This document shows positions 13,990 to 64,000 of a stretch of DNA of 64,000 bases, piece by piece; within the stretch, counting starts at the first letter, position 1; each line of letters starts with the position of its first letter. This DNA is from Arenicola marina (taxonomy: Eukaryota > Annelida > Polychaeta > Arenicolidae). The notes beneath the pieces were generated by a model. The model was not told the origin of the DNA. It was given only the letters and a program-made list of their open reading frames with translations, and ran no database searches. The stretch lies in assembly GCA_964019135.1 (NCBI GenBank), contig OZ025255.1, forward strand, positions 22,917,708 to 22,981,707, given 5' to 3'. The position numbers and the translations under genes are program-made.

Positions 13990-16900
13990 ACGACCTACTG
14001 CCCAGGGGGAGTGGGTTCCTACTGTTGTAGTCTACTGACCAGGGGGAGTGGGTTCTACTGTCGGAGTCTACTGACCAGGGTGAGTGGGTTCCTACTGTTG
14101 TAGTCTACTGACCAGGGGATGTGGGTTCCTACTGTCGGATTCTGTTGACCAGGGTGAGTGGGTTCCTACTGTTGTAGTCTACTGACCAGGGGGAGTGGGT
14201 TCCTACTGTTGGAGTCTACTGACCAGGGAGAGTGGGTTCCTACTGTTGTAGTCTACTGACCAGGGGGAGTGGGTTCCTACTGTTGTAGTCTACTGACCAG
14301 GGGGAGTGGGTTCCTACTGTCGGATTTTACTGACCAGGGGGAGTGGGTTCCTACTGTTGGCGGCTACTGACCAGGAGGAGTGGGTTCCTACTGTTGGAGG
14401 CTACTGATAAGGGGGAGTGGGTTCCTATTGTTGTAGTCTACTGACCAGGGGAAGTGGGTTCCTACTGTCGGAGTCTACTGACCAGGGAGAATAGGTTTCA
14501 CTGTTGTAGTCTACTGACCAGGGGGAGTGGGTTCCTACTGTTGTAGTCTACTGACCAGGGGGAGTGGGTTCCTACTGTTGTAGTCTACTGACCAGGGGGA
14601 GTGGGTTCCTACTGTCGGATTCTACTGACCAGGGGGAGTGGGTTCCTACTGTTGGCGGCTACTGACCAGGGGGTGTGGGTTCCTACTGTTGTAGTCTACT
14701 GACCAGGGGGAGTGGGTTCCTACTGTTGGAGGCTACTGACCAGGGGGAGTGGGTTCCGACTGTTGTAGTCTACTGACCAGGGGAAGTGGGTTCCTACTGT
14801 CGGATTCTACTGACCAGGGGGAGTGGGTTCCTACTGTTGGCGGCTACTGACCAGGGGGAGGGGGTTCCTACTGTTGTAGTCTACTGACCAGGGGGAGTGG
14901 GTTCCTATTGTTGTAGTCTACTGACCAGGGGAAGTGGGTTCCTACTGTCGGAGTCTACTGACCAGGGAGAATAGGTTTCACTGTTGTAGTCTACTGACCA
15001 GGGGGAGTGAGTTCCTACTGTTGGAGGCTACTGACCAGGGGGAGTGGGTTCCTACTGTTGTAGTCTACTGACCAGGGGGAGTGGGTTCCTACTGTCGGAT
15101 TCTACTGACCAGGGGGAGTGGGTTCCTACTGTTGGAGTCTACTGACCAGGGAGAGTGGGTTCCTACTGTTGTAGTCTACTGACCAGGGGGAGTGGGTTCC
15201 TACTGTTGTAGTCTACTGACCAGGGGGAGTGGGTTCCTACTGTCGGATTCTACTGACCAGGGGGAGTGGGTTCCTACTGTTGGCGGCTACTGACCAGGGG
15301 GAGTGGGTTCCTACTGTTGGAGGCTACTGACCAGGGGGAGTGAGTTCCTATTGTTGTAGTCTACTGACCAGGGGAAGTGGGTTCCTACTGTCGGAGTCTA
15401 CTGACCAGGGGGAGTGGGTTCCTACTGTTGTAGTCTACTGACCAGGGGAAGTGGGTTCCTACTGTCGGAGTCTACTGACCAGGGAGAATAGGTTTCACTG
15501 TTGTAGTCTACTGACCAGGGGGAGTGGGTTCCTACTGTTGGAGGCTACTGACCAGGGGAGTGGGTTCCTACTGTTGTAGTCTACTGACCAGGGGAAGTGG
15601 GTTCCTACTGTCGGAGTCTACTGACCAGGGAGAATAGGTTTCACTGTTGTAGTCTACTGACCAGGGGGAGTGGGTTCCTACTGTCGGAGGCTACTGACCA
15701 GGGGGAGTGGGTTCGTACTGTTGTAGTCTACTGACCAGGGAGAGTGGGTTCCTACTGTTGGAGGCTACTGACCAGGGGGTGTGGGTTCCTACTGTTGGAG
15801 TCTACTGACCAGGGGGTGTGGGTTCCTACTGTTGTAGTCTACTGACCAGGGGGTGTGGGTTCCTACTGTTGGAGTCTACTGACCAGGGGGCGTGGGTTCC
15901 TACTGTTGGAGTCTACTGACCAGGGGGAGTGGGTTCCTACTGTTGGAGGCTACTGACCAGGGGGTGTGGGTTCCTACTGTTGGAGTCTACTGACCAGGGG
16001 GTGTGGGTTCCTACTGTTGTAGTCTACTGACCAGGGAGTGTGGGTTCCTACTGTTGGAGTCTACTGACCAGGGGGAGTGGGTTCCTACTGTTGTAGTCTA
16101 CTGACCAGGGGGTGTGGGTTCCTACTGTTGGAGTCTACTGACCAGGGGGCGTGGGTTCCTACTGTTGGAATCTACTGACCAGGGGGAGTGGGTTCCTACT
16201 GTTGGAGTCTACTGACCAGGGGGAGTGGGTTCCTACTGTTGTAGTCTACTGACCAGGGGAAGTGGGTTCCTACTGTCGGAGTCTACTGACCAGGGAGAAT
16301 AGGTTTCATTGTTGTAGTCTACTGACCAGGGGGAGTGGGTTCCTACTGTTGTAGTCTACTGTCCAGGGGGAGTGGGTTCCTACTGTTGTAGTCTACTGAC
16401 CAGGGGGAGTGGGTTCCTACTGTTGTAGTCTACTGACCAGGGGGAGTGGGTTCCTACTGTTGGAGTCTACTGACCAGGGGGAGTGGGTTCCTACTGTTGG
16501 AGGCTACTGACCAGGGGGTGTGGGTTCCTACTGTTGGAGTCTACTGACCAGGGGGAGTGGGTTCCTACTGTTGTAGTCTACTGACCAGGGGGAGTGGGTT
16601 CCTACTGTCGGATTCTACTGACCAGGGGGAGTGGGTTCCTACTGTTGGCGGCTACTGACCAGGGGGAGTGGGTTCCTACTGTTGGAGGCTACTGACCAGG
16701 GGGTGTGGGTTCCTACTGTTGTAGTCTACTGACCAGGGGGAGTGGGTTCCTACTGTTGTAGTCTACTGACCAGGGGAAGTGGGTTCCTACTGTCGGAGTC
16801 TACTGACCAGGGAGAATAGGTTTCACTGTTGTAGTCTACTGACCAGGGGGAGTGGGTTCCTACTGTTGGAGGCTACTGACCAGGGGGAGTGGGTTCCTAC

Positions 16901-18715
16901 TGTTGGAGGCTACTGACCAGGGGGCGTGGGTTCCTACTGTTGGAGTCTACTGACCAGGGAGAGTGGGTTCCTACCGTTGCAGTCTACTGACCAGGGGGAG
17001 TGGGTTCCTACTGTTGTAGTCTACTGACCAAGGGGAGTGGGTTCCTACTGTTGTAGTCTACTGACCAGGGGGTGTGGGTTCCTACTGTTGTAGTCTACTG
17101 ACCAGGGAGAGTGGGTTCCTACTGTCGGAGTCTACTGACCAGGGAGAATAGGTTCCTACTGTTGTAGTCTACTGACCAGGGGGCGTGGGTTCCTACTGTC
17201 GGAGTCTACTGACCAGGGAGAATAGGTTCCTACTGTTGCAGTCTACTGACCAGGGGGAGTGAGTTCCTACTGTTGTAGTCTACTGACCAGGGGGAGTGGT
17301 TTCCTACTGTTGTAATCTACTGACCAGAGGAAGTGGGTTCCTACCGTTGTAGTCTACTGACCAGGGAGAGTGGGTTCCTACTGTTGTAGTCTACTGACCA
17401 GGGAGAGTGGGTTCCTACTGTTGTAGTCTACTGACCAGGGAGAGTGGGTTCCTACTGTTGTAGTATACTGACCAGGGGCAGTAGGTTCCTACTGTTGTAG
17501 TCTACTGACCAGGGAGAGTGGGTTCCTACTGTTGGAGTCTATTGACCAGGGGGTGTGGGTTCCTACTGTTGTAATCTACTGACCAGGGGAAGTGGGTTCC
17601 TACCGTTGTAGTCTACTGACCAGGGGGAGTGGGTTCCTACTGTTGTAGTCCACTGACCAGGGGGAGTGGGTTCCTACTGTTGTAGTCTACTGACCAGGGG
17701 GAGTGGGTTCCTACTGTTGTAGTATACTGACCAGGGGCAGTAGGTTCCTATTGTTGTAATCTACTGACCAGGGGGAGTGGGTTCCTACTGTTGTAGTCCA
17801 CTGACCAGGGGGAGCGGGTTCCTATTGTTGTAGTCTACTGACCAGGGGGAGTGGGTTCCTACCGTTGTAGTCTACTGACCAGGGGGAGTGGGTTCCTACC
17901 GTTGTAGTCTACTGACCAGGGGGAGTGGGTTCCTATTGTTATAGTCTACTGACCAGGGGGAGCGGGTTCCTATTGTTGTAGTCTACTGACCAGGGGGAGT
18001 GGGTTCCTATTGTTGTAGTCTACTGACCAGGGGGAGTGGGTTCATACTGTTGGAGTCTACTGACCAGGGGGAGTGGGTTCCTATTGTTGTAGTCTACTGA
18101 CCAGGGGGAGTGGGTTCCTACCGTTGTAGTCTACTGACCAGGGGGAGTGGGTTCCTACCGTTGTAGTCTACTGACCAGGGGGAGTGGGTTCCTATTGTTG
18201 TAGTCTACTGACCAGGGGGAGCGGGTTCCTATTGTTGTAGTCTACTGACCAGGGGGAGTGGGTTCCTATTGTTGTAGTCTACTGACCAGGGGGAGTGGGT
18301 TCATACTGTTGGAGTCTACTGACCAGGGGGAGTGGGTTCCTATTGTTGTAGTCTACTGACCAGGGGGAGTGGGTTCCTATTGTTGTAGTCTACTGACCAG
18401 GGGGAGTGGGTTCCTACTGTTGGAGTCTATTGACCAGGGGGAGTGGGTTCCTACCGTTGTAGTATACTGACCAGGGGGAGTGGGTTCCTACTGTTGTAGT
18501 CCACTGACCAGGGGGAGTGGGTTCCTACTGTTGTAGTCTACTGACCAGGGGGAGTGGGTTCCTATTGTTGTAGTCTACTGACCAGGGGGCGTGGGTTCCT
18601 ACTGTTGTAGTCTACTGACCAGGGGGAGTGGGTTCCTATTGTTGTAGTCTACTGACCAGGGGGAGTGGGTTCCTATTGTTGTAGTCTACTGACCAGGGGG
18701 AGTGGGTTCATACTG
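13990..18715. repeat. 37-bp satellite-like array, about 128 copies
   Basis: The consensus unit is TACTGACCAGGGGGAGTGGG followed by TTCCTACTGTTGTAGTC. Variant blocks are scattered in the first two thirds: GTCGGATTCTACTGACC, GGCGGCTACTGACC, and a shortened GAATAGGTTTCACTG type. The last third is enriched in CTATTGTTG and CTACCGTTG types. The segment from 17,861 recurs almost exactly from 18,120, an offset of 259 bp or seven units, so a seven-unit higher-order block has been copied. Because 37 is not a multiple of three and the unit contains stop codons, no frame is open. This is the largest single feature of the window. Confidence 0.95.
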
Positions 18716-18719
18716 TTGA

Positions 18720-23750: not shown

Positions 23751-26085
23751 TCCACCATGTCGATATTCGAGACGAATGAACCATCTCAATATTCGAGGAG
23801 GGTGGACCATGTCGATATTCGAGACGAATGAACCATGTCAATATTCGAGGAGGGTGGACCATGTCGATATTCGAGACGAATGAACCATGTCAATATTCGA
23901 GGAGGGTGGACCATGTCGATATTCGAGACGAATGAACCATCTCAATATTCGAGGAGGGTGGACCATGTCGATATTCGAGACGAATGAACCATGTCAATAT
24001 TCGAGGAGGGTGGACCATGTCGATATTCGAGACGAATGAACCATGTCAATATTCGAGGAGGGTGGACCATGTCGATATTCGAGACGAATGAACCATCTCA
24101 ATATTCGAGGAGGGTGGACCATGTCGATATTCGAGACGAATGAACCATGTCAATATTCGAGGAGGGTGGACCATGTCGATATTCGAGACGAATGAACCAT
24201 GTCAATATTCGAGGAGGGTGGACCATGTCGATATTCGAGACGAATGAACCATCTCAATATTCGAGGAGGGTGGACCATGTCGATATTCGAGACGAATGAA
24301 CCATGTCAATATTCGAGGAGGGTGGACCATGTCGATATTCGAGACGAATGAACCATTTCAATATTCGAGGAGGGTGGACCATGTCGATATTCGAGACGAA
24401 TGAACCATGTCAATATTCGAGGAGGGTGGACCATGTCAATATTCGAGACGAATGAACCATGTCAATATTCGAGGAGGGTGGACCATGTCAATATTCGAGA
24501 CGAATGAACCATGTCAATATTCGAGGAGGGTGGACCATGTCGATATTCGAGACGAATGAACCATCTCAATATTCGAGGAGGGTGGACCATGTCGATATTC
24601 GAGACGAATGAACCATGTCAATATTCGAGGAGGGTGGACCATGTCGATATTCGAGACGAATGAACCATCTCAATATTCGAGGAGGGTGGACCATGTCGAT
24701 ATTCGAGACGAATGAACCATGTCAATATTCGAGGAGGGTGGACCATGTCGATATTCGAGACGAATGAACCATCTCAATATTCGAGGAGGGTGGACCATGT
24801 CGATATTCGAGACGAATGAACCATGTCAATATTCGAGGAGGGTGGACCATGTCGATATTCGAGACGAATGAACCATGTCAATATTCGAGGAGGGTGGACC
24901 ATGTCAATATTCGAGACGAATGAACCATGTCAATATTCGAGGAGGGTGGACCATGTCGATATTCGAGACGAATGAACCATCTCAATATTCGAGGAGGGTG
25001 GACCATGTCGATATTCGAGACGAATGAACCATGTCAATATTCGAGGAGGGTGGACCATGTCAATATTCGAGGAGGGGGGACCATGTCAATATTCGAGGAG
25101 GGGGGACCATGTCAATATTCGAGGAGGGGGGACCATGTCAATATTCGAGTAGGGTGGACTATGTCAATATTCGAGGAGGGTGGACCATGTCAATATTCGA
25201 GGAGGGGGGACCATGTCAATATTCGAGGAGGGTGGACCATGTCGATATTCGAGACGAATGAACCATGTCAATATTCGAGGAGGGTGGACCATGTCGATAT
25301 TCGAGACGAATGAACCATCTCAATATTCGAGGAGGGTGGACCATGTCGATATTCGAGACGAATGAACCATGTCAATATTCGAGGAGGGTGGACCATGTCA
25401 ATATTCGAGGAGGGGGGACCATGTCAATATTCGAGGATCGGGGACCATGTCAATATTCGAGTAGGGTGGACTATGTCAATATTCGAGGAGGGGGGACCAT
25501 GTCAATATTCGAGGAGGGGGGACCATGTCAATATTCGAGGAGGGTGGACCATGTCAATATTCGAGGAGGGGGGACCATGTCAATATTCGAGGAGGGGGGA
25601 CCATGTCAATATTCGAGAAGGGTGGACCATGTCAATATTCGAGGAGGGGGGACCATGTCAATATTCGAGGAGGGGGGACCATGTCAATATTCGAGTAGGG
25701 TGGACTATGTCAATATTCGAGAAGGGTGGACCATGTCGATATTCATGGTGGATGAACCATGTCGATATTCATGGTTGGTGAACCTTGTAGATTTTCGAGA
25801 TGGATCAACCATGTCGATATTCATGGTGGATGAACCATGTCGATTTTCGAGTTGGATGAACCATGTCGATATTCAAGAAGGATAAACCATGTCGATATTC
25901 GAGGGGGATGAACCATGTCGATATTCGAGTTGGATAAACCATGTCGATATTCGAGGTGGATGAACCATGTCGATATTCGAGGTGGATGAACCATGTCGAT
26001 ATTCGAGGTGGATGAACCATGTCGATATTCGAGGTGGATAAACCATGTCAATATATTCGAAGAGTGTGAACTATGTCGATTTTAC
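23751..26085. repeat. 26-bp satellite-like array with higher-order structure, about 90 copies
   Basis: The basic unit is ATGTCAATATTCGAGGAGGG followed by TGGACC. From 23,757 to about 25,020, two unit types alternate: a GTCGATATTCGAGACGAATG type and a GTCAATATTCGAGGAGGGTG type. This makes 52-bp dimers. Every third dimer in the first part carries CATCTCAATA instead of CATGTCAATA (about 23,781, 23,938, 24,093 and 24,249), giving a 156-bp higher-order period. From about 25,020 the array is mainly monomeric GGAGGGGGGACC units. After about 25,735 it becomes divergent units (GGTGGATGAACC). Frames are open on both strands in places but reflect the repeat. Confidence 0.95.
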
Positions 26086-26089
26086 CACA

Positions 26090-27400
26090 GCGTCAGATTT
26101 CCCCAGAGCCATTGCACTCATTTCATCTTAGATAATCCCCATGTGCTCCCCTGGTACCATGGCCAAGAAGCACCGTGCGCCGCATATCAAGTACAAAGTG
26201 TTATGTACTCTGACAAGACTCCCAGATAAATAACAGGGATATGTCTCACAAATCAACCCGCTATCAACTAAGGTAAATAATGTATAAAAGAGCAGTTTCC
26301 TTTTCGATGACCACGACCTGTACCTGTACGCGTTAGGATCATGGATGTGATGTGGGCCCATGTACGATGGATCAACAACGACAGGGAGTGATATGTCTTG
26401 TTGACAAGATGAAAACGATTACCGTTCACATGTTAGGTTTATAGATAAAAGGACCTTTGCAATCAGAATTTGCATTCAAACCCCCCCAGTTTTTACATCG
26501 TGGACCATACATGCAGTCTTAAATTCAACCATCGCTGTTGATGCTTCAGACTTGGGGGAGTGAAGCCGACCTTTTTCTGAGGCCCTCGAGACCGTTTCAG
26601 TACTTCGACACCACGTGGTCTGGGAGCTTTCGGCTTGGTCACGCGCGGCTGTCTCCAGATAATTCTGTTAGAGATTGCAGTCTCCGTGAGGGGGCGTTGT
26701 TACGTAATTTGCCCCCCCCCCCCATCCCCCGGGGCTTCGGCTTCCCGCTGTCGATGTCGAGTGTTGCCTCGCGCCTACCACAGCTTTCAGCCACGGCATC
26801 CGTGATTGCATAATTGATACACCGCGGACTCTGTGGGTAATCCAGACATATGGGAGGTGATTACGGCGCGGTGGCCGCACGGTACCTCCGTGGCACAGTA
26901 AACAGTAACCCCCACGACCAGTTCGTACCACACGTGCCTCACGGTCCCCCTTGTCGTTGCATCGTTGCATATACACTGCGACGCCAGGGAAAACAGCGCC
27001 TCATCATGTTGGAGCAATTCACCGCTTTCACGGACTACAAACATCGTGCGTGCGTATTAATCCGCAATCTCCCAAATTGTTCCTGGCAGCGTGGCGGTAG
27101 CCGTGACTGTTCGGGGTATAGATCGCGGGTAATCTACCACCATCCGTTATCGCCCATTATCGCCCACGCACGTGCCGCCGTTGCTATGACTGCGGGCGCC
27201 ACGTCGTAGGCTGGCGCGGCGCTAGGCAACGAGAACCGACGCGGAAGTAGTCACCGGATAACACAGATAGTCGTAACGTGACGTCAGAGGTAACTCTTGT
27301 CCCGCCGGCAGCAGAGCAAGCTCTTTACGCCGAATGTACCTCGTTTCAGGAGGGACTTCTTGTGGTAGTCCTCGAATATCATATCTGTGTTGTTGGCGCC
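26090..27400. other. Spacer, GC-rich in the second half
   Basis: Overlapping frames of 70-119 codons occur on both strands between 26,128 and 27,209, but none has convincing splice sites or a recognisable family pattern. A run of about 13 C lies near 26,711. I did not find here the exon that should follow 28,321 in the minus-strand gene; it must start in phase 1. Confidence 0.35.
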
Positions 27401-27404
27401 TGGA

Positions 27405-27795
27405 AAAACACCAAATGCATAGTAAAAGAAGTAGTAAGGAAAAGGATCAAATGTATAATGTAAGATTGAAGATGGAAAAAGACCAAATGTAAAAGTAAGA
27501 TTGAAGCTGAAAAAGGACCAAATGTATAAAGTAAGATTGAAGATGGAAAAGGACCAAATGTATAGCGTACGATTCAAGTAGTATGGAAAGGACCAAATGT
27601 ATAGTGTACAATTCAAGTAGTATGGAAAAGGACCAAATTGTATAGTGTACGATTCAAGTAGTATGGAAAAGGATCAAATGTATAGTGTACGATAGAAGTA
27701 GTATGGAAAAGGACCAAATGTATAGTGTAAGAATAGTCTAGAAAATGATCAAATGTATAGTGTTGAAAATAGTATGATAGTGGAAAAGGACAAAA
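27405..27795. repeat. 37-40-bp degenerate tandem repeat, about 10 copies
   Basis: The unit is approximately AGTATGGAAAAGGACCAAAT followed by GTATAGTGTACGATTCAAGT. The first copies (AGATTGAAGATGGAAAAAGACC) and last copies are more diverged than the middle ones. Confidence 0.8.
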
Positions 27796-28144
27796 TATAG
27801 CGTGCTGCACATAGTGTAGAATTGTGAGTTGTACACCGATGTAAATTCGTACGTATTGTTTGTAGGCCGTCTCCATAACCTATCTGGATATATGGTGTGT
27901 TACCATTACAGAAATCCAACGGGGCCTAGGTGTGTTCCTCTTGCTTCCTCCCTATTCAGCGCAATAAGTATTTCAGAAGTAATTAAAGACCGCCTGGCCT
28001 ATTATACAGTAGTATTATATTAATATCACAGTAATTGTACAATACGTAGTTCAGAGGCGACACAACCTGAGATTTATCATTGCAACCAATCACGAATGGC
28101 GTGACATTTCGGTATCGGTCGGAAGAGTTGTTAATACTATAAAT

Positions 28145-28302
28145 CTATAATATTATATTGCTAACTTAAAGGTGTATTGGTGGGACACCACAGAGTAGCA
28201 GCTTGTGCTGCCGTCTGGTGGATCACTATAATATTATATTGCTAAGGTTTATTGGCCGGACGCCACAGAGTAGCAGCTTGTGCTGACGTCTGGTGGATCA
28301 CT
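28145..28302. repeat. Tandem duplication of about 80 bp
   Basis: CTATAATATTATATTGCTAA, then a short variable stretch, then CCACAGAGTAGCAGCTTGTG and a conserved TCTGGTGGATCA end, occurs twice in direct succession. The copies differ by a 5-6 base indel and a few substitutions. The second copy ends within 20 bases of the splice donor of the exon at 28,321-28,397. Confidence 0.8.
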
Positions 28303-28320
28303 CCCGCCTTGAAGACTCAC

Positions 28321-28397
28321 CGGATGTGTCAGAGAAGCGGGCGAAGCTGGGATCGTACCCCAATATTCGGAGGAGATCCAGCACTTCCTTGCGTTCC
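28321..28397 (-). CDS. Internal exon (E) of unidentified minus-strand gene
   Basis: This 77-base exon lies between acceptor CCTGTGTTTCAG and donor GTGAGTCTT on the minus strand. It enters in phase 2 and leaves in phase 1. Joined to the exon at 29,671-29,782 it completes an Arg codon and reads ERKEVLDLLRILGYDPSFAR then FSDTS. The peptide is an amphipathic helix followed by a loop and looks like folded protein. The next exon, which must start in phase 1 at a lower coordinate, was not found. I do not recognise the family. Confidence 0.75.
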
Positions 28398-28617
28398 CTG
28401 AAACACAGGAAAATCCACCGTCATTAAGGATCACATACGAAACATCAAGACTCCCAGCTATCTGTGCCTCGCAATATTAATCATGTATCGTCCCCGGGAA
28501 GTTTCCTGGTCCAGCGTATCCCCTGTGTGCACAAAAACGGCCTAAAAATATTTAGTAGTTCTGATACGTATCAATTACGTATCAATCATGATAGAAACTA
28601 ACGGACGATTACTGTTT

Positions 28618-28715
28618 TAGACCACATATCTCCACACTAGTTAAGGTCGGGTTCGAACCCACAACCCTTAGTGTCGGTCTGCAGTCGAGCGGGCCACCTT
28701 GGGACGACGGTGGAT
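28618..28715 (-). mobile_element. tRNA-like SINE head (family C)
   Basis: On the minus strand, AAGGTGGCCCGCTCGACTGC is followed about 35 bases later by a perfect B box, TGGGTTCGAACCCGACC. The spacing of the two blocks is tRNA-like. There is no CCA-ready acceptor stem and no plausible anticodon arm, so a tRNA-derived repeat is more likely than a functional tRNA. Confidence 0.45.
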
Positions 28716-29019
28716 GCCTCACATAATATGAAAAAAAGTCCTCAGAAAAGTGAGCTGAATGCCACGACATTTTCAAGCAAGAAAAATTGCCTGTTACCTT
28801 GCCAGACAACACAAAGCCCCTGACGTGACAAGCGATCAGTCTTCCTCCCTGCGTGAAATTGACTTTTACATGGGTGTTCGGCCTTAGTCGTGATCACAAC
28901 GAACGTGAGCATCGGCTCGTGAGTATCTGGCTTCAAATACACGCTTCATCCTCTTCAATCGTGTAGTCATGCATGGCTGGCGGGACAAGGGAATTGCTCA
29001 TAGATGTCCTTGTGTGGTA

Positions 29020-29671
29020 TCAAGGCCTCTCCATCCTAACACATACACCTGTGTCTTATCAAGGCCACTCAACATGGAAACATACACCATTATGGTATCA
29101 ACTCCACTCCATCATCAATTAAGCAACTTGTATGTTATAAATCGATCAAGACTGACATACCTATATATTTCCATGGTTTCTCCATCATAACTCACATACT
29201 TGTATATTTCCATGGCCTTTCCATCATTAGTCACATACCTGTATATTTCCATGGCCTCTCTATCATGGCTGATATACCAGTATTTGTCCATGGCCTCGTC
29301 ATCATAAGTCACATACCTGTATATTTCCAAGATTTCTCCATCATAACTCACATACCTGGATAGTTCCATGGCCTCTCTATCATTAGTCACATACCTGTAT
29401 ATTTCCATGGCCTCTCTATCATGGCTGATATACCAGTATTTTTCCATGGCCTCGTCATCATGGCTGACATACCTGTATATTTCCATGACCTCTCAATCAT
29501 AACTCACATACCTGTATATATTTCCATGGTTTCCCCATCATAAGTCACTTACCTGTATATTTCCATGGCCTCTCCATCATGGCTGATATACCAGTATTTT
29601 TGCCATGGCCTGTCCATCATGACTCACACACCTGTTTATTTTCATGGCCTCTCCATAATGACCTACGTACC
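29020..29671 (-). repeat. 39-bp minisatellite made of exon end plus 5' splice site
   Basis: Read on the minus strand, the unit is GAGGCCATGGAAATATACAG followed by GTATGTGAGTCATGATGGA, about 16 copies. The first 20 bases are near-identical to the last 20 coding bases of the exon ending at 29,671 (GAGGCCATGCAAATATACAG). The rest equals that exon's donor and first intron bases (GTACGTAGGTCATTATGGA). The array starts exactly at the exon boundary and runs into the intron. Many copies keep ACAG-GTATGT, a good 5' splice site. The period is 13 codons, so frame is kept across several copies (EAMEIYRYVSHDG repeats, one open stretch spanning about nine units at 29,115-29,486). Confidence 0.9.
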
Positions 29672-29782
29672 TGTATATTTGCATGGCCTCGGCGCTGTTG
29701 CTTGGTGCCCCGGGATCCATCATCCGTGCGGCTGACCCATCCAACAGCATGAATGTGGCCGGGTAGTGAAACAGAGACTTCA
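29671..29782 (-). CDS. Internal exon (D) of unidentified minus-strand gene
   Basis: This 112-base exon lies between acceptor TTCTGTTCCTTTTGCAG and donor GTACGTAGGT on the minus strand. It enters in phase 1 and leaves in phase 2, matching its neighbours on both sides. With the preceding G it begins VKSLFHYPATFMLLDGSAAR and continues MMDPGAPSNSAEAMQIY. The family is not recognised. The last 20 bases and the donor have been amplified into the 39-bp minisatellite that follows. The second donor-like copy, 39 bases downstream at 29,632, would extend the exon in frame by 13 residues (YVGHYGEAMKINR). Confidence 0.8.
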
Positions 29783-29789
29783 CTGCAAA

Positions 29790-30805
29790 AGGAACAGAAA
29801 CTGATCAACGTATATAGATCTATATATTTAACACGACGCAGGTCGCCCAGCATCACAAATCTACGTCGTTGGCATTAATAATTGTTAGATTGCTTCAGTA
29901 AGATAACCAATAACCTGGCCACTATATACATATTCAGCAAGCATATATATATATATATAGATCAACGATAGGTGGATCGGTGTGTAAGCCATGTCACAGC
30001 TATAAATAGACTAATCTAGGCCAAGGAGCTTCCTGGGGCAGTCACATGAGTGACATTTGAATGACTATATTCAGCGGCAGAGAACGAGTGACGGACCGAG
30101 AGAAACCCCCTCGCGACTACTGGGACACGGGCCAAGCGTCTGACATTTCCATGGAGCAGGTGATTCGGCGAAATATCCTGCTGGAGGCATATAGTAGAGA
30201 GCACGACCATAGGGCCGCAGATGTAAGATAAAGGAGAGTAATCTGTCAGGGCATATAGTCGGGCTGTCCACCACACCCTTATAAAAGTAGTACGACAAAT
30301 GTAGCAATGAATAAATAGAAAAGGTAAGACATAAGTGGGGAAATAGAGGCCACAAATAAGACAAGTATAGGACTCAAACAACATACGTAGCAACATTATT
30401 CATCCTCATACTCATCTGGGTAAACGAATGACAAAAAGTTATGTTACCAAAATTAAGAAAATATTTTGTGTTGAATTTAAAGATATATATTATGACGCGA
30501 AAAAAAGACGTATTTGACTATTGAGTTTTGCAATAATACAAGTGATATTCACACTTTTACACCAAAATCATTGCATTTCAAAATTGCGCCTGAAAAAGTA
30601 AATACAAAACAGTAAGCAAAAGTAGTTATTTTTAAGAAAAAGTAGGAAGATAAGAAAAAGTAGGACATATAGGATGGAGACCAAAAAGTAGGAAAGGTAG
30701 GATCACTGGACAGCCTGTATAGAGGTTCATTTCAGTTCAGCTGCAAGTGAAATGATAACCTTCCGCATAAATAACAGTAAGATGGTAGGAAAGATCATTA
30801 CGGAA
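29790..30805. other. Intron sequence, no recognisable feature
   Basis: This is AT-rich sequence inside the 16-kb intron between exons at 45,870 and 29,782. A 126-codon minus-strand frame (30,396-30,016) and a shifted 97-codon frame overlap each other and have no splice support. Confidence 0.4.
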
Positions 30806-30811
30806 TGGAAG

Positions 30812-30990
30812 TAAGAGAGGGAGGCCAGAAATCAACACGTGCTTGGTCCTAGCGGCTATGGGGCAGGGGTGATAACGTTGGCAGTCCATACACCACACTT
30901 AAGAGAGGGAGGCCAGAAATCAACACTTGCTTAGTCCTAGCGGCTACGGGGCAGGGGTGATAACGTGGGCAGTCCATACACCACACTTAA
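30812..30990. repeat. 88-bp tandem duplication
   Basis: TAAGAGAGGGAGGCCAGAAA through TCCATACACCACACT occurs at 30,812 and again at 30,900, with five or so substitutions. A truncated third start (TAAGAGTGGCAGGCC) lies at 30,988. Confidence 0.85.
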
Positions 30991-30999
30991 GAGTGGCAG

Positions 31000-32130
31000 G
31001 CCTTCGACCTGAAAACTACGAATAAATTGCACCAGTGGCCAATGACATATCAGCTTTGTGGCCAGACGCCCTGGCAGAGGCGTGGGCTCTGTGGACGAGA
31101 GAGGGGTGTGCTGGTGGGGGGGGGGGGGCTTTAGCGGGTATGGTTGACACACATTTATTGCGGTGTTGAGACGCCACTCGTCGAAATCATGCTACTGCCG
31201 ACTAGACGTCGGATGGGGCCGTGGTGGTGGGGGGGGGGGGGATACTTTCCCCGGCGGACGCGGAGGGCGAGAGTAAATCGCCATTAAAGGACAAGGCGCA
31301 TCCCTCCGCGAGTGTCTGGAGCTGTTCGCTGAGTGTCGAGCGCCGCCCTCGTGGAGAGTGCGATGGGGGTGGGGCGTGGGCGGGGGGTGGAAAGGGGGGA
31401 GGGTGGTGATGGGACGCGGGGGTGAACAGGGGGGTGGACGCTGAGGTGTAACCTTCACTTCATCCCGAGATGAGAGTGTCCTCCACTGGTTAAGGGTCGC
31501 CAGGGAGTGTGGGGGGTGGGGGGTGGGGGTGGGGGTGGGAGTGGGAGTGGGGACGGGGTTGGGAGGGAGAGAGAGAGAGATGGTGGAGAAGAAGGCCAAC
31601 GGGGGGCGGGGTGAGGGGGGGGGGAGAGTGGGAGGAAGAGTTGTGGGGTGAAGGAAATGATCGGGTAGATAGAGATGGTGGGACCGCAGGGGAAAGAGGG
31701 AGAGAAGGTGGGTGGGGAGGAGGGCTATTGGAGGGGGGTGGGATGCGAAGAGTGAACGACATAAGGGGAGGGAACGGGGGAAGTAAAAGAGAGAGAGAGG
31801 GGGGGGAGGAGGGGTGGGGTGGCGTGGGTAATGACTGGGCCATGAAGCCAAGAGGACGCCGTGGGAGGAAAAGACGATAGGCATGGCGAGAGCTGATTTA
31901 TTGTCGGAGTATTTGTTCGCTACCCCCCCCCCCCCGGCCATGTTGGCACCCACAACGCCGCTCTCACGGGCCGGGCCGCCCAGGTCAAGGCGAGTGATAA
32001 ACGGTCGGCGGCTAATTGTTATAGGTGACTACTTCCCGTATGCAGCCTCAAATTTGCTGCAATAAACTATGCAGCATTCTAGTTACTAATAGAGCCGAAG
32101 GTCGTCATCGACCAAGATGCATAATGGCCG
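31000..32130. other. G-rich asymmetric spacer
   Basis: From 31,115 to 31,870 the plus strand is strongly G-rich, with several runs of 8-14 G and the related repeat GTGGGGGTGGGAGTGG. Long Pro/Ser/His-rich frames on the minus strand (up to 253 codons) are compositional artefacts. A run of C follows near 31,923. Confidence 0.5.
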
Positions 32131-48640: not shown

Positions 48641-48811
48641 TGGTTATCCCAGGAGCCCGATTATTATATTGTTTTTCTAATGACTTGATCAGTCCGAAAT
48701 TGACACAAAGTCATCAAAGCAAATGTGTTTTTGTAGGTGCCGTAACGTAGCAGGGCACACTGCAGATTCATTGACTAATCAAGACAGTATTACCACAGAC
48801 CCACACATAAG

Positions 48812-49069
48812 GGGGCCGGCGCGATAGCCCAGTGGGCTAGAGCGCTCGCATTGAGTGCTCTGGCCACTTGAGAGCCTAACGGCACGTGAATCGGTGGTTC
48901 AAGCCATGTTGTGGCCAGGTCTGTGTGGTCGAAGGTAAAGATCCTATGTCTTTCTTCGTAAAGAGTAGGGGTTACCCCCAGAGGCATGGCTCCACTCTCC
49001 CTTCCTTCTCCCATTGACGCGATATGACCAAAAGTGGTTAAAGCGTCCCGAATAATCAACCAACCAACC
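48812..49069 (+). mobile_element. tRNA-derived SINE (family A), full-length copy
   Basis: The element begins GGGGCCGGCGCGATAGCCCA, with A-box-like TAGCCCAGTGGGCTAGAG and B-box-like GGTTCAAGCCA about 65 bases apart. A body with TCTGTGTGGTCGAAGG and CTCCACTCTCCCTTCC follows. It ends TTGACGCGATATGACCAAAA, GTGGTTAAAGCG and a CAACCAACCAACC tail. Copies at 59,700-59,970 and 60,943-61,181 share the whole layout. A tRNA head, an unrelated body and a short simple tail define a SINE. It lies in the intron below the exon at 49,235, in antisense orientation to the gene. Confidence 0.85.
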
Positions 49070-49234
49070 CTCACATCAGTAGACCGCTCATTCCCTTACA
49101 AAAATACGACTCGTCAAACCAGTGTTATCACATAATCACGTATATGCATTACACAAATTCCGTGGAACGATTTGTGACAGCATAACCACGGATACCAATA
49201 TAATGAGCACGCGACACATCCCGAGATAACCTAC

Positions 49235-49359
49235 CGCTTTTCTCCGGAAATGCCGCTGAGAGGCGCTGCAGTATGCGCATCTCCTTGGAGAGCTGCTGTA
49301 GGGCGATACAGAGTGACGACAGGCGGCGCTGTCCGTCCTCCGACATGTCAGGGGTCAGT
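49235..49359 (-). CDS. Exon 3 of RGS9BP/RGS7BP-like gene
   Basis: This 125-base exon lies between acceptor CACCCTCTGCTGGCAG and donor GTAGGTTATC on the minus strand. It enters in phase 2 and leaves in phase 1. It reads LTPDMSEDGQRRLSSLCIAL, then QQLSKEMRILQRLSAAFPEKS. The pattern L-x2-L-x(n)-EM-x(n)-L-x-AAFP closely follows the second helical part of RGS9BP, where an acidic-Met-Arg stretch is followed by Ala-Ala-Phe-Pro. That comparison is from memory of the family and is not an alignment run. A weaker donor four bases further on (GTTATC) would leave in phase 2 and match the candidate exon at 47,939. Confidence 0.65.
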
Positions 49360-59464: not shown

Positions 59465-59700
59465 CTATTCCCATTTCCCATCCACGCACAGTTCCACACG
59501 CAGTACGTAGGCAATGGCTGGAACCAATATAAACCAGCACATTAGCCAGTGATCAGCCAGTTTATGGCGGGACGCAATGGTTGGTGAGACCTCCATGTGA
59601 ACAGACCCCAGGGTGACATCTGCCAGTAAACCAGCATCACCTGGCCACAGTTGTCTCGTTCCATTCCGCCACGGAGTCATCACGGATAAGTTGTTTCCAG
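59465..59700 (-). other. Open frame beside SINE, uncertain
   Basis: A minus-strand frame reads through the SINE at 59,700-59,970 and then codes for a varied peptide with a hydrophobic stretch (HWLMCWFILVPAIAYVLRVE) before a stop at 59,465. A possible acceptor (GACAACTGTGGCCAG) and donor-like GTACTG are present but weak. It could be a membrane-segment exon or chance. Confidence 0.2.
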
Positions 59701-59970
59701 CCGCTCCGGTCAGGTGGCCAGAGTGCTCGCATTGAGTGCTCTGGCCACTTGAGAGTCTAACGGCACGTGGATCGATGGTTCGAGCCCCGCTGTGGCCATG
59801 TCTGTGTGGTCGCAGGATACAGGTCCCATGTCCTTCTTCGTAGGGGGTAGGGGGGGAGTAGGGGGTTACCCCCAGGGACATGGCTCCACTCTCCCTTCCT
59901 TCTCCCATTGACGCGATATGACCAAAAGTGGTTAAAACATCCTGAATATACAACCAACCAACCAAACAGC
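59700..59970 (+). mobile_element. tRNA-derived SINE (family A), 5'-diverged copy
   Basis: The head is recognisable only from GTCAGGTGGCCAGAGTGCTC. The B box is intact (GGTTCGAGCCCCGC). The body has a local expansion (GTAGGGGGTAGGGGGGGAGT). It ends with the same GACGCGATATGACCAAAAGT block and a CAACCAACCAACC tail as the copy at 48,812. Confidence 0.8.
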
Positions 59971-59974
59971 CAAC

Positions 59975-60940
59975 CATGACCAAGTTTAATGGCCTGACTA
60001 GAAGCAGCCACCAAGTGGGAAAATATCACCCGCAGATATTCGATGCTTTAAAAACATGGAGACAAATCGATGCCCAAACAAAAACATATCCGGTGCAGTC
60101 AACCAATGGAGGGGGCGATGTCCGCAATTTGCCCTCGCAATTGAAACAAATGGCAAAGCAAATGGCACGGATTGTTTTAGGGGCATATCGACTATCGTGT
60201 TCGGCGGAAAGGTGAGGCGACACCAGCTTGCAGCATTGGTATCATTGATAACGCTGAATATTTCATAATTGAGAAATGTTTAAACATTCATAATTCAATT
60301 TGCACTCTGTGTCAATGTTATTCTGGAGCAATGATATCACACAAAAAAACGTTGTTTAATACATTATTCACGTCACTAATGATCCTCAGCAAGATTACTT
60401 GCCCTATTCGACATCTGTGGAAACTATATCCGTCACGAACCGTATCACACATTGAATTATCTATGATGCAATTTCAAACGAATATCAAACAGCTCTAAAC
60501 CGATGCAAAACCTACCAAAATAAAGTAGAACAAAAACCAATCGGCTTAATAGCCACGCGTTGCCATAGTTACATTGCGTAGAACAATGAAACATAAAGTC
60601 ATACAAAAAGATTACTCTGGTTATTAATTGTAAAGGCTCGGCTGGCTGCACGTGCCATATTTCTGGTAGTTTTATATATATATCTATTGAACCCAGGAAG
60701 ATCTGAAAACATGCTTTCGGACATGCTTCTTGCACTGCAGTCAAATACAATTAACAGAGATGCAAAATTGACATAATTTAGTTGGTAATGAAGCCTACCT
60801 CGAATTTCGTGGAACATATCGTTATATAAAGCTAACAAAATGACAGCAATGTACGAATTTGTATGACGAAGCAGCACACAGATAAGGTTGGCCCAGACCA
60901 GTTGCACCATTATTGCAGCGAATTATATTCATTAACTACT
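59975..60940. other. Spacer with a possible minus-strand exon
   Basis: On the minus strand, an ATG at 60,910 opens MVQLVWANLICVLLRHTNSY then IAVILLALYNDMFHEIR, and meets a donor-like GTAGGCTT near 60,799. The peptide resembles a membrane helix. A further acceptor (TTGTATTTGACTGCAG) lies about 60 bases downstream; such an intron would be unusually short. This is recorded as a candidate only. Confidence 0.25.
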
Positions 60941-60942
60941 TA

Positions 60943-61181
60943 GGGGCCGGGCCGATAGCTCAGGTGACCAGAGCACTCGCCAGAGTGCTCTGGTCACATG
61001 AGAGCCTAACGGCACGTGGATCGATGGTTCGAGACCCGCTGTGGCCATGTCTGTGTGGTCGCAGGATAAAGATCCCACGCAAAGAGTAGGGGGGACATGG
61101 CTCCACTCTCCCTTCCTTCTCCCATTGACGCGATATGACCAAAAGTGGTTAAAGCGTCCGGAATATACAACCAACCAATCA
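60943..61181 (+). mobile_element. tRNA-derived SINE (family A), internally deleted copy
   Basis: The head is GGGGCCGGGCCGATAGCTCA with GTGACCAGAG. The B box is GGTTCGAGACCC. The part of the body between GATAAAGATCC and AAAGAGTAGGGG is shortened. The conserved end block GACGCGATATGACCAAAAGT and a CAACCAACC tail are present. Confidence 0.85.
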
Positions 61182-61184
61182 TTA

Positions 61185-62330
61185 AAGCAATATACTTACA
61201 TGCGCCAACTTAGATTTTTTACATTTTAGAGTCAAGACTAAAAGTATCTCAACATTTATGATGCATATGTTTTATATCTCTTAAGTCGGTAAAACAAATA
61301 TTTCAACATGAAACTGCTCGGTTTGTTTATATCGCGCGCGGACGTGATAGCGAGCCGCGGTCGACATCACACACAAAATAGCGAACTGCGAACAGGAATA
61401 GGAAGCAGGAATATAAAGCCGGCCACCAACTTCTGCTCCGTAGACCAAAATGCTGCTCCCCGGATAGCCCGCAGGCTTTCAGGATTTAAATTCAAGACAG
61501 AATGTACTTATTTGACATGGAGAAGAGGTTAGTAATACAGCAAATTACGGAATAATATTGCTTTAACTACTTACTTTTTTCCATTTAACACAATTTAAAT
61601 GTTTCTCAGTCTGGAAATCTATCTTTGAACAGCCCTAGTATCAACCAAGCAATCACCACTGGAGAGGTCGCAGCGGTGTGGGAGATGGTTCTGCGCGCAA
61701 CCTACAACAAGCTCTAACGCAGTATATGATGTCCTTTTGGACACGGACCGAATGTCACAAACTAGTCAGTTCCCCGAAGGTGCTTCTATATATTCTGACG
61801 AGTCTATATTTCCTGTTCCAGGACGGATGCTGCCATAGCCGTCATCGCGAAACGTCGCAACCCAAGAAGATGACATTCTCCGTGTCGCCAAACGACAATG
61901 CTTAAACGACGCCCGCTTGCGGTAGATACATCCCCCTCTTCCCGTTATGGCCGACCGTTTGTGCCCGCTTTGTATGGTGCCCCAGGTTAACTATGTCTTC
62001 CCTAGCAGTCGGCCTGCCCACATGTTGTATGGAGGCCGCGATGTATTCATCTTGTCGGCGGTTGGGAGGATTTATTACCCCGATTCTCATATAAAATTTC
62101 ATAGGCGGAAAATCACCGGGGTCTTTAAATCACCTCCGGGCCCACCCCGAAGGATGTTAAATCTGACATCGATGAACTAAGAATAGAATAGATTCGATGC
62201 CTCAGCATTCTCCAGTCAATCGCGTCTGGGCGACATGGACGCACTGACAGCTGTGGGCAGAGAGAGAGAGAGCAACGGGGGTTCATATCAGACCCCGGGA
62301 CTAAACAATGAAAACAGAAATCGTTGGCGA
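61185..62330. other. Spacer with weak plus-strand exon candidates
   Basis: A plus-strand acceptor (ATATTTCCTGTTCCAG, ending at 61,821) precedes two open frames that soon reach stops (DGCCHSRHRETSQPKK and so on, or TDAAIAVIAKRRNPRR). It could be a last exon. An upstream stretch ending at GAGAAGAG-GTTAGT (61,529) could be its partner. The evidence is too thin to call. Confidence 0.25.
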
Positions 62331-62339
62331 GGATATAAA

Positions 62340-64000
62340 AGACTCGAGCGGGTGGGTGTGGGCGCGGGTGGGAGACGGGGGGTGGAGGTGGGGGGGGGGG
62401 GAGTGTGTGGGGAGTTGAAGTGGGGTGGGAATTGTGAGCGAGAGGATAGGGGTAAGGGGGGGGGGGGGTGGTATGTGGTGGTAGGAATGGAAGGGAGTAG
62501 TGGGGAGTGATGTTGTGTCCAAAATGGCTTTAATGTTGTCGGGAAGGCCTGCAATAAAAGTGGCAGAGAAACTGGGAGAGACTGCGGCTTCCTTAAGAAT
62601 GTGAGGACGCACAGAGGGTACCCACTTGTCGATGCTTTTAGTGGCGCCCGTGTGTGTTTGTATGGAGGGGGAGGGGGTGGAGTGGTATAGGGTGGGGACG
62701 GGTGGGTGGCCGGTGGTGATACCTGAGGACAGAGGGAGAAGGGGGGGGGGGGCACGGTGAATTGTTGATGGGATGAAGGGTGAGGGTTAGGATGGTACGA
62801 TGAGTGAAAGAAGGTTGTTGGTGGTGAGGGGTTAGTGTGGGTGTGTATGACGGGTCAAGGTCAGGGTTGGAGGCGGGGGGTGATAGCGCGGTTGGGATGG
62901 GGGGGGGGTACCACGGCAAAGTGCGGGACTTTAAAGCGCCACCACCATGCAACCCCATAACAGTTCACAGTGCCGAGGAGGGTGGTAATTCTGATGCCGA
63001 GGGGCAAGCTGGGAGACACTTGATGGTAAGGTAGGAAGGAGAGAGATCGAGAGGTTAGGCGTCGGGGTGGAGACGCGTTGGAGAGATGGGTGGCGGCTTG
63101 TTGTAATAAGGTGACAGTGGGGCATGGGAGGGAATGTTATTGTGAGAATGTGTCGGTGGGCGAGGAGCGGCGGTGTGGGTGCGGGTACGACGGACTAAGC
63201 TGCTATAACGAAAGTGATGAAACATAAAACGGGGGGATGAAGGTGTGTGTGTGTGGGGGGGGGGCTGGGATAATACGGGGTGGGGCCTACAATATATAGC
63301 CATGCATCTCGCGCCAGCGTCTCCCTCAGTGACCAGGGTGGCGCCGTGGCGAAGGGTGGTAAACGCCGCACCCCCACCCCCGGCCACCGGGACACCACCT
63401 CATGCCAATAGCTCGTAAATCCCGGGGTCTAAATCAGGTTGCTATTGACTCGACAGTCTGCCGCTCAAAGCCAATAGATCCCGCCTATTCACGGTGAGCG
63501 CTCATCCCCACCCCCCCACACACACACGGTCCCTCTTTCCCCCGACCTCGCCCCATTCTTTCACCCCTGTCTCGCCCCCTCCCCCCTCCCCTCAGCACAC
63601 GCGGGTGCATATGGCTACCGTCGACCGACAGACATCGCGAGCGGGGAAGGGTTCCCGTGGGGGGGACGGAGCGTGGGGGTTGGTGAAGCTTAGCTGATGG
63701 TGATGGCTGTCACATACGGTAGGCTTGAGTCTGGTTGATCACACGCTGGGCAAGGTGAGGGCTAGAGGAGGACTTGGGTGGGGGGGGGGGGGCGGCTGTG
63801 TCCGACGGAGGCGTCGAATTTTGAAGTGTTTTAAAGCTGCCAAACAAGACGCCTTCCATTGTAAGTCGGGGGGCCTAGACAGTTGGGGGGCACAATAGCA
63901 CAGCCGGGAGGTGCGTGACTGTCCGGACATGGCGCGGAGAGAGACCTCAGTCAGGGAGACACTGGCATCGAGAAGAATACGGACAACAACCATCCCCCGC
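62340..64000. other. G-rich asymmetric region
   Basis: The plus strand is G-rich with runs of 8-12 G near 62,390, 62,458, 62,740, 62,900 and 63,779, loosely repeated as GGGTGGGTGTGGGCG-type sequence. Pro-rich minus-strand frames are compositional. No gene is supported to the end of the window. Confidence 0.45.

Follow-up and report, generated by a model that had tools for sequence, protein, structure and literature searches.

Can a gene carry the junction between one of its exons and the following intron in many tandem copies, and which of these copies would its splicing then use? This question is raised by a minisatellite with a 39-bp period in the annelid Arenicola marina, on the minus strand of a 64,000-nucleotide stretch of contig OZ025255.1 (hereafter the window; C8 among the contigs of the 867 Mb genome that we searched). 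The array repeats the 5' splice site, or donor, at the end of a putative exon, exon A, which is followed in the predicted gene by exon B (Table 1; positions without a contig name refer to the window). We think it likely that the array is a mirage, a junction-straddling minisatellite of the kind described in amphioxus, that it formed through indiscriminate tandem duplication, and that the first copy of the donor is still the one that is spliced.

We delimited the units of the array with Tandem Repeats Finder (TRF) and then by wrap-around alignment on the minus strand. TRF returned a period of 39 over 29145-29690 (13.9 copies, score 617), a period of 156 over the same interval (score 797) and a weaker 39-bp row at 29011-29115 (score 112). 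The alignment resolved 14 good units from 29690 down to 29144, followed by three decayed units and a nine-base fragment that extend to about 29020. Aligned to a dimer of the unit, the decayed stretch 29020-29142 obtains a score of 48, which none of 300 shuffles attained. Both methods confirm the initial annotation of this DNA, made from the sequence alone, which had described an exon junction amplified into a 39-bp array of about 16 units. Each unit is composed of 20 nt that resemble the end of exon A, followed by the donor and the remainder of 19 nt of intron, and the fusion of the last 20 exon bases to the donor reads as it had been quoted. The beginning of the array had been placed exactly at the exon end and has to be moved: it lies 20 nt within exon A, at 29690, and the last 20 nt of the exon are unit 1 itself. 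A 20-base pattern built from the unit finds 13 matches in the window, all of them within the array (0.07 expected from shuffles), and a genome search with the junction, which passes over very common words, returned five DNA matches, all at the array locus.

The GT dinucleotide is intact in all 16 units with ungapped donor columns, out of 17 units that could be aligned. In this sense many units do keep their donor, as had been proposed, but the exact string ACAGGTATGT occurs just five times, and units 3, 7 and 11 carry the weaker donor CTG/GTATAT (the slash marks the splice site), with changes that fall outside GT. Mean identity between units is highest at lag 4 (0.876), followed by lag 8 (0.845), with 0.79, 0.777 and 0.789 at lags 1 to 3. 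This indicates that blocks of 156 bp were amplified after the 39-bp unit had arisen. Unit 1 shares 67-82% identity with the other units, and the array as a whole is homogenised inside and diverged in its edge units, which is a feature of mirages. The sequence indicates that the array was probably seeded by a tandem duplication that took in 20 nt at the end of exon A together with the adjoining 19 nt of intron, and that it then grew inside the intron by 39-bp steps and later by 156-bp blocks.

In amphioxus, mirages are described as tandem repeats across exon-intron boundaries, in Adh3 and in the globin genes BflGb6 and BflGb9. According to that account, regular splicing of these genes is seemingly undisturbed, with support from reverse-transcription PCR; many, not all, copies contain AG/GT; copy number differs among haplotypes, and edge units escape homogenisation (PMC3087553). 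Further mirages in PGBD5 and TnC were reported as not disturbing splicing, and the first repeat in PGBD5, a gene predicted by the authors, adjoins the 5' splice site (PMC3902484). Like these, the Arenicola unit spans a presumed exon-intron boundary, its copies keep GT and its edges have diverged. As judged from the letters of the DNA, the window array has the structural features of a mirage, namely a unit spanning a putative boundary, retained splice dinucleotides and a homogenised interior with diverged edges. It differs from the amphioxus cases in its higher-order period of four units, and the Arenicola mirages differ in their host, an annelid, in copy numbers of up to about 30, and in their presence at five of 48 donors of a single gene family (see below). 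The window array is most likely a mirage minisatellite that leaves splicing unchanged.

To follow the coding consequences of the extra donors, we joined the 16 donors one by one to exon B and checked the reading frame. Splice-site scores here and below come from generic matrices, which were typed from general knowledge and not trained on the present genome. The first donor, at 29670, yields a short product that is open and in phase. Donor 2 (GT at 29631, matrix score 9.4) also gives an open product, with 13 additional residues, so the earlier statement that the second donor keeps the frame holds. The same annotation had expected further steps of 13 residues and had noted a later unit with a one-base change that shifts the frame. 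Unit 3 has a one-base insertion, and the donor at 29591 is frameshifted; the 13 donors from 29552 on all take in the TGA at 29579-29577. Frameshift and stop are due to the insertion in unit 3 and to a two-base insertion in unit 5. One step is therefore available and the remaining 14 donors are closed, which makes the 13-residue ladder of protein lengths largely wrong and unsupported past its first step.

The substitutions among units point in the same direction. Read in the frame of the exon, the 34 distinct changes between units comprise 24 nonsynonymous, 8 synonymous and 2 stop changes, against 25.7, 6.8 and 1.5 expected, and the pattern is similarly neutral in the other two frames. The array therefore shows no coding selection. 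We rejected a coding tandem-repeat exon, as the frame of exon A ends at the TGA and changes are neutral in all three frames. A repeat protein encoded by the array was also rejected. One frame of the inner array stays open over about 125 codons, yet its changes are neutral, and the opening is uninformative because a 39-bp unit with one open frame yields it by itself. The Pfam hits of this inner-array frame are weak and all under the cut-offs. Also the period, although a multiple of 3, looks like chance, because three other junction arrays that we decomposed have periods of 59, 47 and 40 bp.

These other arrays come from a sample of 20 regions (156 kb) that carry 69 actin-family profile matches. 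Tandem arrays with a period of at least 10 cover 17.1% of these regions; in the window, tandem arrays account for 32.4%. An array overlaps a match or lies within 40 bp of it on the 3' side in 8 of the 69 cases and on the 5' side in none. By eye, four of the eight 3'-side arrays copy the exon end and the donor into the intron; of the others, one is found at a terminal coding exon, one falls within a profile match that extends across an intron, and two are low-complexity arrays nearby. Three of the four junction arrays could be decomposed, into 30 units of 59 bp, 12 of 47 bp and 29 of 40 bp (regions L035, L036 and L039, respectively). The more complex fourth array (L038), at C17:29293742, has TRF periods of 21, 42, 64 and 85; its 42-bp unit lacks the junction, which recurs further on.

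Is this more than would be expected by chance? We could test 48 donors and 44 acceptors of the 69 matches, the others having too short a flank or, close to the end of the match, no site that scored 5 or more. In a local-alignment test, in which the match had to cross the junction and random positions could include exons, copies were found downstream of 5 of 48 donors, upstream of 1 of 44 acceptors, for none of 48 exon-interior words and for 67 of 500 random positions. The five copied donors are the four seen by eye and that at C17:29288146, which has a donor score of only 5.3; the sole copied acceptor is a marginal match of 18 nt. In the gene of the window, the same test finds one copied donor out of four, that of exon A, and none of four acceptors. 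A test with 24-letter words, conservative enough to miss the donor of exon A itself, scored 6/48 donors, 1/44 acceptors and 0/48 exon interiors as copied, compared with 273/1500 random non-exon words and 82/371 strong GT sites outside exons. The rate for donors is indistinguishable from that for the random words (P-value = 0.44), while acceptors (P-value = 0.0017) and exon interiors (P-value = 8e-5) are below them. We therefore abandoned a first impression of arrays being attracted to donors, as the controls put donors at the rate of random positions and acceptors and exons lower. These data suggest that, within one gene family, tandem duplication affects donors about as readily as intron DNA and acceptors less readily.

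The 30-copy array at C14:22480340-22482123 is informative about which donor is used. It almost fills the intron between exons that match profile positions 78-144 and 143-184. As the profile has no space for residues encoded by the array, the donor in use is very probably the first, although 23 of the 29 copies that follow it equal or exceed its score. The continuity of the profile across this intron gives indirect support to regular splicing that may be undisturbed, as in mirages. In the window gene, partly by analogy with this case, splicing most likely joins 29670 to exon B at 28397, and the array would be removed with the intron. No special mechanism acting on splice sites would be needed, since tandem arrays, which make up about a third of the window, form throughout introns. 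An array that straddles a donor would survive, with its first copy preserving the correct exon end. Across an acceptor, an array would probably be tolerated less well, as splicing would encounter an upstream AG before the true site. The extra donors would then be neutral by-products, with one in-frame step that is potentially usable.

We also asked whether the extra donors bear marks of selection. GT persists in 16/16, 30/30, 11/12 and 28/29 units of the four decomposed arrays. The variation of the donor columns, ranked among circular windows, falls at 0.41, 0.81, 0.66 and 0.32 and hence at no extreme, which argues against selection either for or against the extra donors. The proposal that the copies are decoys held off by selection is not supported by this comparison, as donor columns are neither specially decayed nor kept.

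The same results bear on three alternative explanations of the array. If the spliceosome used several of its donors, the gene would produce isoforms that vary in length by 13 residues. The GT retained in every scored unit and the strong, open donor 2 would allow it; nevertheless, only that single step is open, the donor at 29591 shifts the frame and the 13 donors from 29552 on meet the stop codon, the array has no coding constraint, and the periods of the three other junction arrays are indivisible by 3. We consider such isoforms quite unlikely. Very improbable, in our view, is a selected decoy or regulatory array, whose donor copies would attract U1, so as to adjust splicing or shield the intron to a degree set by copy number: it could account for the persistence of GT in all four arrays, but the donor columns vary like the others and the rate at which donors are copied does not exceed that of random positions. 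The latter result speaks equally against a mutational process specific to splice junctions, for example one linked to transcription or U1 binding, as the seed of the arrays. Such a process would agree with the several arrays that straddle donors and with a second array that abuts an acceptor in the window gene; with donors at no more than the background frequency, it is unlikely.

According to a further alternative, the DNA that holds the array is non-coding and the open frame of exon A arose by chance. Exon A has an acceptor, TTTCTGTTCCTTTTGCAG/TGAAG, in the 99.9th percentile of minus-strand AG sites and a donor, CAG/GTACGT (29671/29670), in the 99.3rd percentile of GT sites. Exons B and A have the two highest splice-score sums on the minus strand (21.7 and 20.6), agree in phase and are separated by 1.3 kb. 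Their content of G+C at third codon positions is 0.69 (A) and 0.68 (B), against a local G+C of 0.43-0.52 in 2-kb bins over 26001-32000. Exon B reaches 26.2 in an exon scan for which 674 actin codons served as the training set, and the maxima of the controls (plus strand, reversed and complemented sequence) are 20.5, 22.2 and 22.4. The anatomy of the array is, moreover, that seen at actin-family exons with homology support. In favour of a chance frame are the equally high splice sum of a plus-strand candidate (21.6), the score of exon C, which is at control level, the place of the upstream exon outside the best eight, and the lack of a homologue in Pfam or PDB. Taken together, we regard a chance frame as improbable and hold with high confidence that exon A is a real exon.

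Several observations weigh against our reading of the array as a mirage with unchanged splicing. In the window array, 7 of the 15 downstream donors score at least as high as the first one, so donor strength fails to explain a preference for the first copy. The contrast between donors and acceptors is not significant by itself (Fisher's test, P-value = 0.07 in the word test and 0.12 in the local-alignment test), and some of the sampled exons are paralogous copies. Amphioxus mirages are described at both 5' and 3' boundaries (PMC3087553), and those on the acceptor side weaken the idea that acceptors are spared. The status of exon A is read from its splice signals, phase and open frame; it is absent from the actin-codon scan, its end being repeat-masked. 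In that scan three other minus-strand candidates, not taken for exons of this gene, exceed the controls: two (28.1 and 25.7) are a repeated pair outside the window and one (24.6) is at 62626-62722. Profile and structure-database searches found no Pfam and no convincing PDB relative of the gene. The top PDB match, to a viral matrix protein (E 0.036), was discarded as chance, with a best-domain E-value of about 2.

Other repeats that involve introns or splice sites differ from the array in instructive ways. Zhuo et al. (2007) are said to have described introns formed from tandem repeats, where the repeat creates a novel intron; in this type, reportedly, donor and acceptor lie in copies of one unit. 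We rejected this origin for the window intron: its remaining part (28398-29019) scores 23.0 against the unit, which is reached by 20 of 300 shuffles, and the AG sites of the array score at most 4.6, compared with 11.8 for the acceptor of exon B. What the window array shares with tandem-repeat-born introns is that splice signals are contained in tandem units situated at exon-intron boundaries or close to them. It differs in being enclosed by an intron with an acceptor end that has no clear match to the unit. Human duplicated genes, too, are described as having internal tandem repeats at exon-intron boundaries, which may form new introns (PMC2812944). Tandem donors, which are reported to add or remove 3, 6 or 9 nt (PMC2279118), resemble the array in their competing nearby splice sites and differ from its roughly 16 copies placed 39 nt apart. 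The introns of earthworm metallothionein genes, annelid introns like ours, contain large minisatellite-like arrays with mean monomers of 178 and 181 bp; unlike our unit, these monomers are described with no mention of an exon junction (PMC12783039). Intronic minisatellites of another kind have been treated in C. elegans too. In the literature that we searched, mirages under that name were met in lancelets only.

The choice of the spliceosome among identical competing 5' splice sites has mostly been studied in engineered constructs. Donors that occur in natural runs of about 12 to 30 copies offer unengineered cases of this choice. Should the first copy prove to be chosen every time, exon definition or the order of transcription must outweigh donor strength. 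The evidence leaves us evenly divided on a broader proposal: donor mirages would be pervasive in this annelid genome (about one donor in ten) and would arise in distant lineages wherever minisatellite turnover is high, with the first of up to 30 near-identical donors being picked and events at acceptors being rarer through selection. If this is true, mirages are no peculiarity of lancelets, and tandem duplications at the ends of introns supply material from which introns can lengthen and new ones perhaps arise.

Table 1. Features of the array and of its predicted host gene in the window
Feature	Position	Strand	Basis
Array core: 14 good units, each about 39 bp; higher-order period of 156 bp (four units)	29144..29690	-	TRF, wrap-around alignment, lag identity, pattern count
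Decayed distal units, three and a fragment	29020..29143	-	TRF, wrap-around alignment, shuffles
Exon A (putative), 112 nt, translated KSLFHYPATFMLLDGSAARMMDPGAPSNSAEAMQIY(R)	29671..29782	-	Splice signals, phase with exon B
First, exon-proximal 5' splice site, GTACGT..., taken as authentic	29663..29670	-	In-phase, open join to exon B
Stretch gained through donor 2: 39 nt, in frame, 13 residues, the sole open in-frame step found	29632..29670	-	Donor joining
First in-frame TGA when exon A reads on into the array	29577..29579	-	Translation
Predicted intron of 1273 bp, array at its 5' end	28398..29670	-	Exon boundaries
Exon B (predicted), 77 nt, ERKEVLDLLRILGYDPSFARFSDTS	28321..28397	-	Acceptor 11.8, donor 10.0
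Probable exon C, 60 nt, phase-compatible with exon B	27340..27399	-	Exon scans; 22.1 with actin codons, the level of the controls
Probable upstream exon (LTPDMSEDGQRRLSSLCIALQQLSKEMRILQRLSAAFPEKS), end phase fits exon A	49235..49359	-	Exon scans; outside the best eight with actin codons
Second minisatellite, about 40 bp, abuts exon C acceptor	27401..27799	-	TRF, unit reading

Exon C and the upstream exon were found in two ways, in a phase-filtered list and in an unfiltered scan whose codon table included exons A and B and the upstream exon. A genome search returned four matches to the gene, the four exons themselves, with no paralogue and no second copy of exon A. In the second minisatellite, the copies repeat the pyrimidine tract of the exon C acceptor; the true site reads CCAG, most copies read CCAT and one reads TCAG, and the unit contains no bases of exon C. 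About 20 nt past the donor of exon B begin two direct-repeat copies (TGATCCACCAGACG...) spaced about 75 bp apart (28150-28301), perhaps an early two-copy duplication near a donor. In the array-bearing intron, the minus strand at 28620-28720 contains GGTTCGAACC and a TGGCC-like box, and resembles a short element derived from a transfer RNA (tRNA); ARAGORN calls no tRNA there. The window as a whole contains no tRNA according to ARAGORN (bacterial setting) and no Rfam family at the gathering score.

Elsewhere in the window, a very large array with a 37-bp period occupies 13995-18718 (about 128 copies, 91% match). Related minus-strand open frames (TTFGHIASMGEGRESGAM...) at 48793-49095, 59468-60025 and 61009-61209 suggest an interspersed repeat family. 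The mirage literature had raised the idea of a cephalochordate source for this DNA; a genome search for the GFP family returned no member, a result of little weight because the control genomes gave no signal either. On the mitochondrial side, we read the order nad3-S-nad2-cox1-N-cox2-D-atp8-Y-G-cox3, with tRNAs called by ARAGORN and proteins named by eye. This agrees with the mitochondrial order of annelids. Sipunculus is reported to have cox1-N-cox2-D-atp8-Y-E-G-cox3, with one tRNA more, and annelid nad3 to lie between nad1 and nad2 (PMC2639372); the order of mitochondrial protein genes is described as conserved over most annelid families (PMC4866719).
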